NCBI GenBank assembly: GCA_029261215.1
Contig: JAJDBT010000039.1
Coordinates: 1-63,038 of the forward strand
Direction: 5' to 3'
From: Nitrospirota bacterium
Lineage (GTDB): Bacteria > Nitrospirota > Nitrospiria > SBBL01 > JAADHI01
DNA: 63,038 bases
Shown one piece after another: positions 50,784-56,020 of the stretch (the stretch's first letter is position 1; each line of letters opens with the position of its first letter). The position numbers were made by a program, and so were the translations under genes. The notes beneath the pieces were generated by a model. That model saw only the letters and a list, made by a program, of their open reading frames with translations, searched no databases and was not told the DNA's origin.

Positions 50784-52544
50784 ATGATGCCTTGTAAATT
50801 TTCTTCCATTTTGCTTGTCGGAGCGATAAGTGCATGGTTTTTATGCATGCCAAATCAAGGGATCGCACGCGAAACAACAGTCACGGACTCTATTGCACCG
50901 ACGGACGACCTCAGCCTCCCCTTTGGTGCATTTGCCATTGGGAAAAAATCCCCTGAGCACCGCATTACCCTGACCAATACAGGGAACACATCACTGCCCC
51001 TGCCTCCCCTCACACTTACAGGGCCGGGAACGAACGCGTTTCGACTCAATCTGAATGCGGGCACAGCACCCTGCGGGAGTTTCACCAACCTTTCTGCTGG
51101 AGAAAGCTGTACCATCACACTCTCATTTATTCCAGATATGACCGGAATACGAACTGCTTTTTTAAATATCGGCACATCCGAAGAACAGATCGCCTTTCAT
51201 GATCCTGCCACAAGCGGGATCAGTCTCTTCAGCCTCACCTCTAAAGTCGTGACGCCAGTGACCCTTCCGGCATCAGGGGTAGACGATTTTCCCACGTGGT
51301 CTCCCGGACGCGGGCAGATTGCTTTTCATCGCCAAATCAACGGCTTCAATTATATTTACAGAGTCAATGTAGATGGCACGGGAGAAACCTTTGTCACCCA
51401 CAAAGCAACCGAACCCGACTGGGCTCCGGATGCTCAAAAAATTGTCATGCGTGACCTTCAGTTTGGCGGACTGAAAATATACGACCTCAGCCTCAACCAG
51501 ATAAGTGCTGTCATTGGGAGCAGCGTCAGCGGAGAGTGGAACAACCCACACTGGTCGCCAGATAACCAGAAACTGGTCTTCCATCATGCCAGTATAAATA
51601 TTCCCTTTCCTCATGACATCTTTACGATAAATGCAGATGGTTCAAGATCTCAACTTATCGCGAATAATGGGAAAACACCGACATGGTCACCCGCTGGTCA
51701 GAAGATCGCTTTTCATAACCTATCGACACAGGGCATCAGTCTTATTGATATCGGAGGGACTCCAACACTCTTAACAAATCCTGGAAGTGCAGAAGACACC
51801 TTCCCCACTTGGTCTCCAGATGAAGCACGCCTTGTCTTTCAGCGCACTACGAGCACTTCCCTGGTCAAAAATGAACTGATGATAATAGGCACCAACGGCT
51901 CCAGCGAAAGCCCTCTCACTCTCGCTTCAAATGGTGAAAAGGTCTCAGGGAAAACACCCTCATGGTCGCCTTCCACACAAACCGCCGTGACGCTCACCGG
52001 AACAGCGCTTGCTTCGAGCGCGAATAGTCCGCCTTCTGCACCTCAGCTTCTTTCTCCGACAAACGGTCAAACGGGCCTTGGAACGTCTGTCACTTTAAAA
52101 TGGCTCACTTCGAGTGATCCCGACGGGGACACCCTGACATACGCGCTCCTCTTTTGTGAAACCGCACAATTTCAAAGCGACGACTGTCAGCCAACCCTCA
52201 TCGCCAAGACTCAACAAAGCACACCGCCTTTTTCTGGAATGCGTTTTGCGGGAACAGGCATGCTTATCGTTGGTTTTTTATACGGATTGAATCGGAACAC
52301 ACATCAGAAAATCAAAACAAGGCGGTCTCTTTTTTTCATCTTCACGGCCTTTTTTTTCATCAGTGCCTGTGGGGGAAGTGGCGGAAGCAGCCCTAATTTT
52401 AGCGCGGGTGGTGAACAGGGCGGCACGGAAATTGCCCAAAACACAGGGCCGCTCAAACCGAATACAAGTTATCAATGGCAAATCACAGCCGACGACGGGA
52501 AAGGAGGAAAAGCCTCCAGTCTAATCTGGCGTTTTACGACTTAG
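50784..52544 (+). CDS. Secreted PD40 beta-propeller protein with membrane segments inside a fibronectin-like domain
   Basis: The ATG at 50784 is preceded by AAAGAG at 5 bases; a GTG two codons earlier is also possible. The 586-residue protein has a signal peptide (SSILLVGAISAWFLCMPNQG). Next is a choice-of-anchor/ASH-like domain (ITLTNTGNTSLPLPPLTLT) and then TolB-like PD40 repeats (DFPTWSPGRGQIAFHRQING, PTWSPAGQKIAFHNLST, FPTWSPDEARLVFQR). The C-terminus opens as a fibronectin-type domain (PQLLSPTNGQTGLGTSVTLK) and ends as one (TSYQWQITADDGKGGKASSL). Between the halves, from about residue 486, are a hydrophobic helix (RFAGTGMLIVGFLYGLNR), a basic loop, and a second segment ending FFFISACGGSGGSSP, like a lipoprotein signal with cysteine near 529. 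Function is unknown. Confidence 0.75.
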   Translation: MMPCKFSSILLVGAISAWFLCMPNQGIARETTVTDSIAPTDDLSLPFGAFAIGKKSPEHRITLTNTGNTSLPLPPLTLTGPGTNAFRLNLNAGTAPCGSFTNLSAGESCTITLSFIPDMTGIRTAFLNIGTSEEQIAFHDPATSGISLFSLTSKVVTPVTLPASGVDDFPTWSPGRGQIAFHRQINGFNYIYRVNVDGTGETFVTHKATEPDWAPDAQKIVMRDLQFGGLKIYDLSLNQISAVIGSSVSGEWNNPHWSPDNQKLVFHHASINIPFPHDIFTINADGSRSQLIANNGKTPTWSPAGQKIAFHNLSTQGISLIDIGGTPTLLTNPGSAEDTFPTWSPDEARLVFQRTTSTSLVKNELMIIGTNGSSESPLTLASNGEKVSGKTPSWSPSTQTAVTLTGTALASSANSPPSAPQLLSPTNGQTGLGTSVTLKWLTSSDPDGDTLTYALLFCETAQFQSDDCQPTLIAKTQQSTPPFSGMRFAGTGMLIVGFLYGLNRNTHQKIKTRRSLFFIFTAFFFISACGGSGGSSPNFSAGGEQGGTEIAQNTGPLKPNTSYQWQITADDGKGGKASSLIWRFTT

Positions 52545-52555
52545 AGACTAAAAAC

Positions 52556-55500
52556 CTATTCTTCATCTGCCCGAAAATATCGGGCTTCCGGGTGATGAAA
52601 AACCATTGCGGAGACCGTGGCTTCGGGGTCCATCATATGCCCATCTGTCAAAGTGACCCCGATTTCTTTCGCCCCTTCTAAGAGGCGGAAGAGTTTTTCC
52701 TGATCGGAAAGGTCAGGGCAGGCCGGGTACCCAAAACTCACACGAATTCCCTGATATTTGTTTTTTAATACATCGCGAATGCTCATCTCTTTCGGATCGG
52801 GAAAACCCCAATCGGCCCTGATTTTTTGATGAAGCCATTCGGCAAAACCTTCGGCACCCTCTATCGCAAGCGCTTGCAACATATGAGATCGCAGGTATTC
52901 TCCCGCATCTTTCCATTCTCCTGATAATTGCCGAACACCCTGGCCGAGCGTCACGACAAAAAAAGCGACCGAGTCCATTTCATTAGAAGCCGTCTCACGG
53001 CAGTAATCAGACAGGCACAGGTAATCTCCACGCGACTGCCTCGGAAAAGTGAAGGTCTCCAGAACCTGACTCTGGTTTTTTGGATCATAAATCAACAGGT
53101 CGTCCCCGCGTGCACGACAGGGAAAATATTGATACACCCCTTGAGCCGACAGATGTCCTTTTGTCAAAATCTCGGACTTCATTGCCTCAACCGAATCAAG
53201 CAGCCGTTTTGCTTTGTCATCACCCTCTGCCAGCAGCCGTTCCAAATTGCCTTTGAGCCCAAGATGATTGCCGTAGAGCATTGAAGGATTGATGTATTCA
53301 AAGAGCTTTTCAAGGGGACCTTCCCGTATAAGGTGTGGTTCAAAATCGGGTGCTTTCGGAAGAGGTAAGTCTCGCCGGACGGGAGAAATGCCTGGGCCAG
53401 ACTCTTTTTTTATCTCGGTCTTTTCTTTTTTCAAAAGTTCGGCCTCTGCGGCCTCATTGCCTTTTGTCACTTCAAGCTGAATTTTCGCAAGCAGTGCGCC
53501 GCGATCCGTTTCACTCGACAATTGGTTCGCAAGCGAGAGGCCATCCATTGCGTCTTTGGCGTAGAGCACCGGCCCCGAATATTCTGCGGCAATTTTCAAA
53601 TTGGTAAAGCGTCGCGTGAGCGCCGCCCCGCCAACCAAAATCGGGAGCTCAATCCCCGAGGCTTTCAAATCTTTGGCTGTTGTGACCATTTGATGAGCAG
53701 ATTTCACGAGCAGCCCCGAAAGCCCAATCATGTCAGGCTTATTCGTCCGCACAGCCTCCACCAAAACTTCCGGCGGCACTTTAATGCCCAGGTTCACGAC
53801 ATGAAACCCATTGTTTGAAAGAATGATCTCAACGAGGTTTTTCCCGATATCATGCACATCGCCTTTCACCGTCGCAAGAATCACTTTGCCCCGGCTGGCG
53901 CTTTCGTTTTTTTCCATAAAGGGCTCAAGATGTCCAACCGCCGCCTTCATCGCCTCGGCTGACTGGAGCACTTCGGCCACAATCAGTTCATTTTGATTAA
54001 AAAGACGGCCCACTTCGGCCATTCCCGTCATTAAAGGCCCGTTGATAATGTCCAGTGGCGCGCTTTCCTTCATTTTTAAATTGAGGTCGTCAATCAGACC
54101 TTCTTTAGATCCCTCGACGATGTACTGGGCCAGACGTTCATCCAGCGGCAGTCTCGGTTGATCCTTGGCAACGGCCTTCTTTTTAACCTTAAAATGAGCG
54201 GCGAAGGCCCCCACGGGATCATCTCCGCGCCAGAAAAGAAGGTTCTCCGAAAGTTCACGTTCAAATTTGGGAATGGATGGGTAGCGCTCCAGTTTTTCTG
54301 AATTCACAATGGCATAATCCAGGCCCGCCTTGACGCAGTGATACAAAAAAACCGCATTGAGTACTTCCCGCCCCGCAGGCGGCAAACCAAAAGAGACATT
54401 ACTGATGCCAAGGATCGTTTTCACTTCCGGTAAAGCGTCCTTGATCAGCGTGATGCCTTCGATGGTTTCTTTGGCTGATCCAATATAATTGTCATCGCCC
54501 GTGCCCACAGGAAACACGAGCGGGTCAAAAATGATGTCTCGCGGAGCAATGCCGTATTTTTCTGTCAGCAAGGTATAGGATCGTTGCGCGATCTCTAACT
54601 TTCTTTGCCGCGTCACGCCCATGCCCTGATCCGGGTCTTCATCAATACAACCCACCACCACCGCGCCACCATAGGTTTTAAGGAGCGGTACGATCTCTTC
54701 AAAACGGCTTTCACCCTCTTCCAGATTGATCGAGTTGATAATGCATTTTCCCTGACAATGTTTGAGCGCAACTTCAGTCACTTCAGCATCCGTCGAATCG
54801 ATCATGATGGGGGCTTTGACCTTTTTATTGAGCTCTTGAATAAAGACATCGATATCCGCCACTTCGTCCCGGTCCGGGTTTGCCATGCAGACATCAATCA
54901 CCTGCGCACCAGTCTTGACCTGGGCTCGACCAATTTCTGCACCTTCTTCTATTTTTCCCGCAATAATCAGCTCTTTGAACTTTCGGCTTCCGATCACATT
55001 GGTGCGCTCTCCCACGATGATCGGTCGGTTTTCATCTTCGATCTGGAGAAATTCAATCCCTGAAACGGTGGTTCTGGAAACGGGCTTTGCAATCCGCGGC
55101 GGCTTGCCTTTGACCATTTTTGCAATCTCGGTGATGTGCGCCGGAGTGGTTCCGCAACAACCGCCAATGATATTAATCCACCCCTCGGCGACAAAACGGG
55201 CCAGCTTTTCCGAGAGTGAAGCAGGCGTTTCTTCATACTTTCCGTCTTCATTCGGAAGCCCCGCATTCGGATAAACACTCACCAAACAGGCCGCCATGCC
55301 TGCCAGAGAACGGATGTGGTCGGTCATAAACTCAGGCCCGGTCGCACAATTTAAACCAATGGACAAAATCGGGAAATGTTCGAGCGCGGCATATAGGGCT
55401 TCCACGCCCTGACCCGCCAGCATGGTGCCTGTCGGCTCAATGGTTGCAGAAATCATAACCGGAATCGCCGTGCCGAGCGCCTTCTGCGCCTTCATCACGC

Positions 55501-56020
55501 CAATCATTCCGGCCTTTAAATTCAAGGTATCTTGAGCGGTTTCAAGCAGAAGCAGATCCACCCCTCCCGCAATCAGACCCTTGGCTTGATTCGAAAAATT
55601 TTCAGACAAGGCATCAAAGGTGACCCCGCCGGTCACGGTGATGGCCTTCGTCGTTGGCCCCATCGAACCGGCCACAAATCGGGGACGATCTTTCGAGGCA
55701 AATTTTGCGGCAGCCGTCTTGGCGATTTCCGCCCCTCTTTTGTTGATCTCATAAACATGGGCTTCAAGGTCGTACTCTGCCAAAACAATCGCCGTGCCGC
55801 CAAAAGTGTTGGTCTCGACAATATCTGCGCCTGCTTCAAAGTAGACTTCATGAATGGACTGAATGACATCGGGACGTGTGATATTCAGGTTTTCGTTACA
55901 TCCTTCAAGGGCCGCCCCGCCAAAATCTTCATCGCTCAGATTCTCAGCCTGAATCATCGTTCCCATTGCGCCGTCCATCACCAAAATGCGATCACGCAAT
56001 ATTTTTTGAATCTCTTCCAT
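52556..56020 (-). CDS. metH: Cobalamin-dependent methionine synthase
   Basis: MetH moves a methyl group from methyltetrahydrofolate to homocysteine through cobalamin. The 1154-residue protein has the standard order: homocysteine domain with zinc-cysteine segments (SIGLNCATGPEFMTDH and INIIGGCCGTTPAHITEIAK), the pterin domain from about residue 330 (RPIIVGERTNVIGSRKFKEL), the B12 cap and binding domain with VKGDVHDIGKNLVEIILSNN, and the C-terminal activation domain (YPACPDLSDQEKLFRLLEG). No cobalamin or SAM riboswitch is visible in the roughly 130 bases upstream. A TGATACAAT extended -10-like box lies near 56055-56063. The plus-strand tRNA-Asn unit begins just beyond. Confidence 0.97.
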   Translation of the reverse strand: MEEIQKILRDRILVMDGAMGTMIQAENLSDEDFGGAALEGCNENLNITRPDVIQSIHEVYFEAGADIVETNTFGGTAIVLAEYDLEAHVYEINKRGAEIAKTAAAKFASKDRPRFVAGSMGPTTKAITVTGGVTFDALSENFSNQAKGLIAGGVDLLLLETAQDTLNLKAGMIGVMKAQKALGTAIPVMISATIEPTGTMLAGQGVEALYAALEHFPILSIGLNCATGPEFMTDHIRSLAGMAACLVSVYPNAGLPNEDGKYEETPASLSEKLARFVAEGWINIIGGCCGTTPAHITEIAKMVKGKPPRIAKPVSRTTVSGIEFLQIEDENRPIIVGERTNVIGSRKFKELIIAGKIEEGAEIGRAQVKTGAQVIDVCMANPDRDEVADIDVFIQELNKKVKAPIMIDSTDAEVTEVALKHCQGKCIINSINLEEGESRFEEIVPLLKTYGGAVVVGCIDEDPDQGMGVTRQRKLEIAQRSYTLLTEKYGIAPRDIIFDPLVFPVGTGDDNYIGSAKETIEGITLIKDALPEVKTILGISNVSFGLPPAGREVLNAVFLYHCVKAGLDYAIVNSEKLERYPSIPKFERELSENLLFWRGDDPVGAFAAHFKVKKKAVAKDQPRLPLDERLAQYIVEGSKEGLIDDLNLKMKESAPLDIINGPLMTGMAEVGRLFNQNELIVAEVLQSAEAMKAAVGHLEPFMEKNESASRGKVILATVKGDVHDIGKNLVEIILSNNGFHVVNLGIKVPPEVLVEAVRTNKPDMIGLSGLLVKSAHQMVTTAKDLKASGIELPILVGGAALTRRFTNLKIAAEYSGPVLYAKDAMDGLSLANQLSSETDRGALLAKIQLEVTKGNEAAEAELLKKEKTEIKKESGPGISPVRRDLPLPKAPDFEPHLIREGPLEKLFEYINPSMLYGNHLGLKGNLERLLAEGDDKAKRLLDSVEAMKSEILTKGHLSAQGVYQYFPCRARGDDLLIYDPKNQSQVLETFTFPRQSRGDYLCLSDYCRETASNEMDSVAFFVVTLGQGVRQLSGEWKDAGEYLRSHMLQALAIEGAEGFAEWLHQKIRADWGFPDPKEMSIRDVLKNKYQGIRVSFGYPACPDLSDQEKLFRLLEGAKEIGVTLTDGHMMDPEATVSAMVFHHPEARYFRADEE

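Follow-up and report, generated by a model that had tools for sequence, protein, structure and literature searches.

An internal lipoprotein-type signal that splits a fibronectin type III domain: a candidate C-terminal lipid anchor of bacterial envelope proteins

Introduction

Lipoproteins are lipidated at their N-termini because the enzymes Lgt and LspA require a hydrophobic signal that is inserted from the cytoplasmic side of the membrane. A gene of a Nitrospirota bacterium raises the question of what such a signal does close to the other end of a protein that already possesses a signal peptide. The gene lies in a 63,038-nucleotide stretch of DNA that was analysed as a whole and is called the window below (contig JAJDBT010000039.1 of assembly GCA_029261215.1). 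According to the original prediction, made from the sequence alone, a final fibronectin type III (FN3)-like domain is interrupted by a hydrophobic helix, a basic linker and a lipobox, an unusual inserted module that either fixes the chain to the membrane at its middle or is cleaved to release two proteins. The architecture of the protein, the occurrence of the module elsewhere and the ways in which it might be processed are examined here.

Results

Architecture of the protein

The features of the protein are listed in Table 1. A GTG codon 6 bases upstream of 50784 is a possible alternative start. The predicted N-terminal signal peptide was found and reads MMPCKFSSILLVGAISAWFLCMPNQGIA-RE. The score of NF012200 to the following beta-sandwich is slightly under the cut-off of 45 bits. 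Residues 33-398 of the full-length AlphaFold model align with E. coli TolB (1crz) at a VIA-align Z of 33; thus the protein shares its propeller fold with TolB of the Tol-Pal system, from which it differs in the C-terminal module. The match to the TolB equivalog TIGR02800 (95.8 of 343 bits) is far under the cut-off.

Table 1. Position and basis of the features of the split-FN3 propeller gene (nucleotide coordinates of the window)
Feature	Coordinates	Strand	Description	Basis
Whole gene	50784..52544	+	586-residue exported protein; TolB-like propeller, split-FN3 module at the C-terminus	Full-length AlphaFold model
N-terminal signal peptide	50784..50867	+	Residues 1-28; GIA before R29; no lipobox	Sequence, crude scans
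Choice-of-anchor-D / ASH-like beta-sandwich	50886..51176	+	Residues 35-131	NCBIfam NF012200, 42.8 bits
TolB-like beta-propeller	51261..52010	+	About residues 160-409, boundaries approximate	PD40, sub-cut-off TIGR02800, VIA-align
FN3 N-half	52032..52211	+	Strands A-B-C-C', residues 417-476, with Cys458/Cys468	HMM positions 1-45; AlphaFold strands, pLDDT
TM1	52239..52289	+	Residues 486-502, predicted out-to-in	Hydropathy, charge; helices in AlphaFold models
Basic loop	52290..52325	+	Residues 503-514, predicted cytoplasmic, net +5	Charge
Internal lipoprotein-type signal	52326..52370	+	Residues 515-529	Hydrophobic 515-528, then lipobox Cys529
Gly/Ser-rich tether	52371..52427	+	Residues 530-548	G+S composition after Cys
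FN3 C-half	52428..52541	+	Strands E-F-G, residues 549-586 (protein end)	HMM positions 52-88; pLDDT 86-98

The first hydrophobic segment (TM1) has the sequence MRFAGTGMLIVGFLYGL. Another 72 residues follow the basic loop up to the C-terminus. They begin with the second hydrophobic segment, which finishes with FISA, and the lipobox ISAC occupies residues 526-529; the codon of Cys529 is TGT (52368-52370). Helix, basic linker and the lipobox peptide FISACGGSGGSSP had been read correctly, ISAC being preceded by a basic n-region and a hydrophobic h-region.

The upstream neighbours are a glucan-phosphorylase-like and a NUDIX-like gene. Past the stop codon, a gap of 11 bases (52545-52555) separates it from the end of a metH-like gene that converges on it from the minus strand (52556-56020). 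These names were given by eye, and no look-alike of a sorting protease was seen by eye among the genes adjoining 50784-52544.

The interrupted FN3 domain

An FN3 profile of 88 positions was constructed from 145 intact domains, taken from 40 loci in Thermotogota, Bacteroidota and other groups. It matches the window protein twice: positions 1-45 score 36 bits and, some 80 residues further on, positions 52-88 score 28 bits. In the 82 modules described below, the first piece stops at a median position of 45 and the second restarts at a median of 53, which places the predicted break in the C'-E loop. The Pfam fn3 model remains under its own cut-off on the window protein. A sequence search of solved structures recovered FN3 proteins matched by one half or the other, never by the whole.

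AlphaFold was run on the module alone with a 35-row alignment, and a separate model of the full-length protein was made; the chain was uncut in both. The mean pLDDT of ten-residue blocks was 86-98 in the FN3 parts and 46-61 in the insert. Strands flank the insert at module residues 57-62 and 135-140, such that the FN3 domain is rebuilt around it. Aligned end to end with VIA-align, the model resembles the FN3 structure of NCAM2 (2jll; Z 10.2, rmsd 2.5, 93 aligned), and a Z of about 10 to FN3 structures identifies the fold as FN3. A Foldseek comparison of the module with the PDB gave nothing at E <= 0.001, the best row being IGF1R at 1.7e-3, and a viral fold library yielded general FN3 matches only, none at E <= 0.001. 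On the profile and the model, residues 417-476 and 549-586 are two parts of one FN3 domain. The original prediction of FN3 halves on either side of residues 486-560 was right in its residue numbers, and the modelled domain is continuous round the insert rather than ending in an ordinary transmembrane C-terminus. In the 35-row alignment, mean column identity was 0.53 in the N-half, 0.38 in TM1, 0.32 in the loop plus second segment (TM2), 1.0 at the Cys, 0.31 in the linker and 0.63 in the C-half.

Occurrence of the module

A search for the same insert elsewhere revealed two paralogues of identical layout in the genome of the window and 82 distinct split-FN3 modules in total, 48 from loci L001-L142 and 34 from L143-L215. 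The count leaves out broken copies, incomplete copies at the ends of contigs and ten loci whose FN3 matches gave no two-piece call. The insertion of a TM, a basic linker and a lipobox into an FN3 domain is therefore as originally predicted; it is a recurrent arrangement and not the peculiarity of a single protein. The paralogues (L002, L003) are large adjacent genes (G000:C35, about 15002 to beyond 21790) that both have a split-FN3 tail; among their other parts are choice-of-anchor-D repeats and, judged by eye, an N-terminal region of SBBP type. Downstream of one of them a lipoprotein-like ORF is cut by the end of the locus.

According to the titles as deposited, split relatives occur in Candidatus Manganitrophaceae, Troglogloeales, Thermodesulfovibrionia and other Nitrospirota, in Geobacteraceae, Desulfuromonadales and SAR324, in a MAG titled Deferribacteres and in one gammaproteobacterial MAG; this placement comes from a scan that kept 79 loci, many of which are intact FN3. 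The genome scans scored part of the candidates of each genome. In the class, the module was found in 13 of 269 genomes, every one within the order of the window. The phylum-wide scan, with its matches inspected in part, gave matches in 45 of 395 genomes and 29 of 169 genera at up to 7 places per genome, broken copies included; two of the 8 rows of one genome (G005) are parts of a single broken copy. Of 395 genomes scanned in the phylum to which the Geobacteraceae genome belongs, 11 matched; the two-piece test confirmed the split in 10 and did not confirm it in G835 (locus L211). A search of plasmids gave no match to the module, and viral contigs yielded no confirmed module.

Two neighbouring genes at L063 (4652-7329) each end in a split-FN3 module, and four module matches lie inside 10 kb at G398:C52:67563-77115. 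L098, L141, L068/L199 and L200 are fragments or broken copies on draft contigs, with parts shifted or missing.

When the 82 joined FN3 domains were placed in one tree with the 145 intact ones, the latter drawn largely from other phyla, 5 changes between split and intact were needed, compared with 66.9 in shuffles. Because of this small number, the split FN3 looks like nearly one lineage.

Conserved features

A Cys follows the second hydrophobic segment directly in 82 of 82 modules, a count that is partly made by construction because the collecting profile itself contained the Cys. A relaxed lipobox is present in 73 modules and the strict form, [LVI][ASTVI][GAS]C, in 49; nine lack even the relaxed form. 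The residue preceding the Cys is S, A or G in 79 of 82. All 82 have a 12-residue stretch with a net charge of at least +2 ahead of the lipobox signal and no hydrophobic segment past the Cys. In the first 48 modules the charge of the loop exceeded that of both flanks in every case (mean +3.4 versus +0.1 upstream and -0.9 downstream), the pattern expected of a cytoplasmic loop, and 49-72 residues separate the Cys from the C-terminus. Gly and Ser make up 60% of the 12 residues past the Cys in the 82 modules as opposed to 20% of the whole proteins. A Met occurs in the n-region of only 39 of the 82; a second product would therefore arise by cleavage and not from a conserved internal start.

In 82 of 82 modules no more than 12 residues lie between the FN3 domain and the end of the chain, which the selection did not demand. 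This places the putative anchor at the C-terminal end and not in the middle of the chain, as had been suggested; the alternatives of an anchoring and a cut module both stand. By sequence and model, the FN3 domain is broken by TM1, a basic loop and a lipoprotein-type signal, and all the modules collected share this layout and its position at the C-terminus.

Module residues 31-70 contain two Cys in 63 of the 82 modules, none in 19 and a single one in no case, in contrast to the 145 intact FN3 domains, of which 140 lack a Cys in the corresponding region, 4 have one and 1 has two. This two-or-none pattern in the split modules, set against the mostly Cys-free intact domains, suggests a disulfide. 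In the window protein the pair (52155-52187; module residues 44 and 54, in the C-C' region) corresponds to Cys458 and Cys468, a probable disulfide in the half that would stay upstream, typical of the split form.

N-terminal parts

Among ten module proteins, Pfam recognized N-terminal families in six and none in four. The six carry ASH/HYDIN (two proteins), GLUG plus DUF11, a MopE-type motif, FG-GAP, or FG-GAP plus TSP3. NCBIfam, applied to ten proteins (one truncated, one of the Ig-like type), adds choice-of-anchor D and Q. Judged by these sequences, the split FN3 behaves as a portable C-terminal module behind differing N-terminal domains. Among 30 ORFs that have a stop upstream, 27 gave an N-terminal signal candidate and one gave none; in two the internal signal was picked instead. 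None of the 27 contains a strict lipobox and four contain a relaxed one (L038, L040, L045, L063), which in L063 sits behind a likely ordinary cleavage site. The related module proteins L038, L040 and L045 have the Cys of a relaxed lipobox following the N-terminal signal too and might be lipidated at both the N-terminus and the internal site.

A related tail in Ig-like domains

NCBIfam already names a related device, NF058595 (invert_tail, "lipo-invert putative C-terminal anchoring domain"), and the name shows that curators have seen such tails. Nothing on "lipo-invert" or on internal lipoboxes in split domains was found in the literature searched. Both devices consist of a TM, a basic stretch, a second hydrophobic segment with a lipobox Cys, a polar linker and the last strands of a beta-sandwich, which end at the C-terminus. 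They differ in the domain that is split, an Ig-like domain in nine of the nine high-scoring members of NF058595 examined (L004, L143-L150) and FN3 in the window protein. When the nine were compared with an Ig-like profile of 101 positions constructed from 15 intact repeats, the first piece stopped at position 73-76 in all of them and began at position 2 in six, otherwise at 8, 20 and 45. The second piece was weak (4-9 bits) and started from 71-74 in six and from 46-48 in three.

The window protein scores 22.6-24.8 bits against NF058595, under the cut-off of 37. Of nine FN3-type proteins five gave a sub-cut-off match (32.9 at best) and four none. One FN3-type relative, L005, scored 37.3 with its neighbours in frame, barely at the cut-off, so that the boundary between the FN3 and the lipo-invert forms is not sharp and NF058595 already touches the FN3 form. 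Within a single family of the class to which the window belongs, NF058595 exceeds its cut-off in 9 of 147 genomes. Positions 73-113 of the model also match ordinary intact Ig-like repeats (L009, L010, L012-L014, L016, L017), and false sub-cut-off matches arise because its C-terminal third does so. Sub-cut-off matches were consequently rejected as a sign of membership: the 30 loci concerned comprise 10 split domains (the window included), 7 intact Ig-like domains and 13 ordinary N-terminal lipoproteins.

Discussion

The recurrence of the arrangement in dozens of otherwise different proteins argues for a domain that is cut, lipidated and rejoined. With a probability somewhat better than even, the module is a portable C-terminal lipid anchor in which the lipobox is processed within the FN3 domain and the two halves stay associated. 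We infer lipidation, cleavage and reassociation as its steps. Export of the chain would halt at TM1, with the basic loop on the cytoplasmic side, and the second hydrophobic segment would take the chain back out and thereby present the topology required by Lgt and LspA, of which the genome of the window encodes one each. Cys529 would be lipidated and the chain cut just before it. The last 58 residues would then form a small lipoprotein made of a flexible tether and strands E-F-G, which may join strands A-B-C-C' left on the upstream fragment in a single, non-covalently held piece. Fragments of FN3 domains reportedly can reassociate with high affinity (Dutta et al. 2005, cited in PMC11666773). 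The protein would in this way become attached to membrane lipid through its C-terminal end, and the remnant of TM1, loop and signal would be left in the inner membrane or cleared by other proteases. Counting against the lipid anchor, TM1 is unexplained if a lipid anchor suffices, and the nine modules with no relaxed lipobox, like the limitation of the strict form to 49, fit it poorly. The possible N-terminal lipidation of L038, L040 and L045 speaks against it as well. The modelled FN3 fold, moreover, comes from the uncut chain and is silent on the cohesion of cut halves.

The proposed signal shares with those of classical Lgt and LspA substrates the basic n-region, the hydrophobic h-region, the lipobox, the Cys and the Gly/Ser tether. 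Unlike theirs, it is internal, past residue 500, and a separate N-terminal signal peptide without a lipobox precedes it. A natural parallel is found in the insulin and IGF1 receptors, the insert of which is located inside FnIII-2; they are eukaryotic, are cut by furin and are not known to have a membrane hairpin or a lipid in the insert. Their insert domain carries a furin site that separates the alpha and beta chains (PMC7039211), and a cleavage-site insert thus divides two chains there as well.

GlyGly-CTERM and PEP-CTERM tags consist of a TM followed by an Arg/Lys cluster. Together with MYXO-CTERM, in the layout given in PMC11980579, they are likewise C-terminal and portable; they stop after the basic cluster, in contrast to the module, which crosses the membrane again and completes an FN3 domain. 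The resemblance of TM1 and the following Arg/Lys cluster to these sorting tags speaks for a double excision, by LspA at the Cys and, where TM1 begins, by a protease of intramembrane or sortase-like type. The hairpin would be lost and the rejoined FN3 domain, held by nothing but its lipid, would be free for sorting to the outer membrane or the surface. An aromatic-Ala/Gly motif, defined by a loose pattern, precedes TM1 in 52 of the 82 modules. In E. coli, Asp after the lipoprotein Cys causes retention in the inner membrane, and Asp takes this place in only 3 of the 82. Against double excision, no partner protease emerged from rhombosortase and exosortase profiles in the 13 module-bearing genomes, and it is considered improbable. 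Rhombosortase (TIGR03902) was over its cut-off neither in any of the 13 nor in the genome of the window, and was rejected as a partner, since the 2 of 58 relatives in which it did exceed the cut-off both lack the module; weaker rhomboid matches occur nearly everywhere among the 58. Exosortase (PF09721) was found in 35 of the 58 relatives, and two exosortases are encoded in the genome of the window. It was rejected as well, for it is present in nine of the module-bearing genomes and lacks a match in four, which are incomplete MAGs, and hence does not track the module. That neither protease tracks the module is in keeping with processing by the general lipoprotein enzymes.

Less probable again is an uncut hairpin: both hydrophobic segments would make up a re-entrant membrane anchor, with the FN3 domain folded on the periplasmic side and the Cys unprocessed. 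AlphaFold models the uncut chain in just this form, as a folded FN3 domain with two helices, and an unprocessed Cys would suit the nine modules devoid of a relaxed lipobox. The Cys would be superfluous in such an anchor, yet it is found in all modules, an argument weakened by its presence in the search profile. An unprocessed hairpin is likewise at odds with the S, A or G that precedes the Cys in 79 of 82 modules and with the Gly/Ser tether that follows.

The release of two independent proteins, as envisaged in the original prediction, is less likely than a rejoined domain and on the whole decidedly improbable. LspA would free a small lipoprotein, the propeller part would be left on TM1 and the halves would remain separate. 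The C-terminal piece does have every part of a small lipoprotein. Against separation, the FN3 halves are the best conserved parts (0.53 and 0.63 versus 0.31-0.38 in the insert when the Cys is disregarded) and fold together as a single domain in the uncut model. A natural two-gene form with a lone E-F-G lipoprotein gene was sought and rejected, the C-half-only candidates being contig ends or broken reading frames and no clear stand-alone gene. An artefact in which read-through or misassembly joined an exported protein to an adjacent lipoprotein gene, for which two poly-T runs within 52330-52358 might be cited, is refuted to near certainty, since 82 distinct modules drawn from many assemblies have their frame and layout in common.

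As far as the searches reach, no published account of the split-domain reading, of the wide FN3 family or of the disulfide pattern was found in the literature searched. There is an even chance that bacteria of several phyla employ signal peptidase II to divide a folded domain of their envelope proteins, and that fragment complementation keeps the lipid anchor attached at the C-terminal end. The device would be generic and would occur in no fewer than two families of beta-sandwich, the FN3 and the Ig-like. If so, the enzymes that ordinarily act on N-terminal lipoprotein signals would be shown to be able to anchor a protein at its opposite end, and proteins that seem to have odd C-terminal transmembrane segments would be accounted for. 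Predictors that consider only the N-terminus would overlook a class of lipoproteins, and a natural split-domain anchor would become usable for display.
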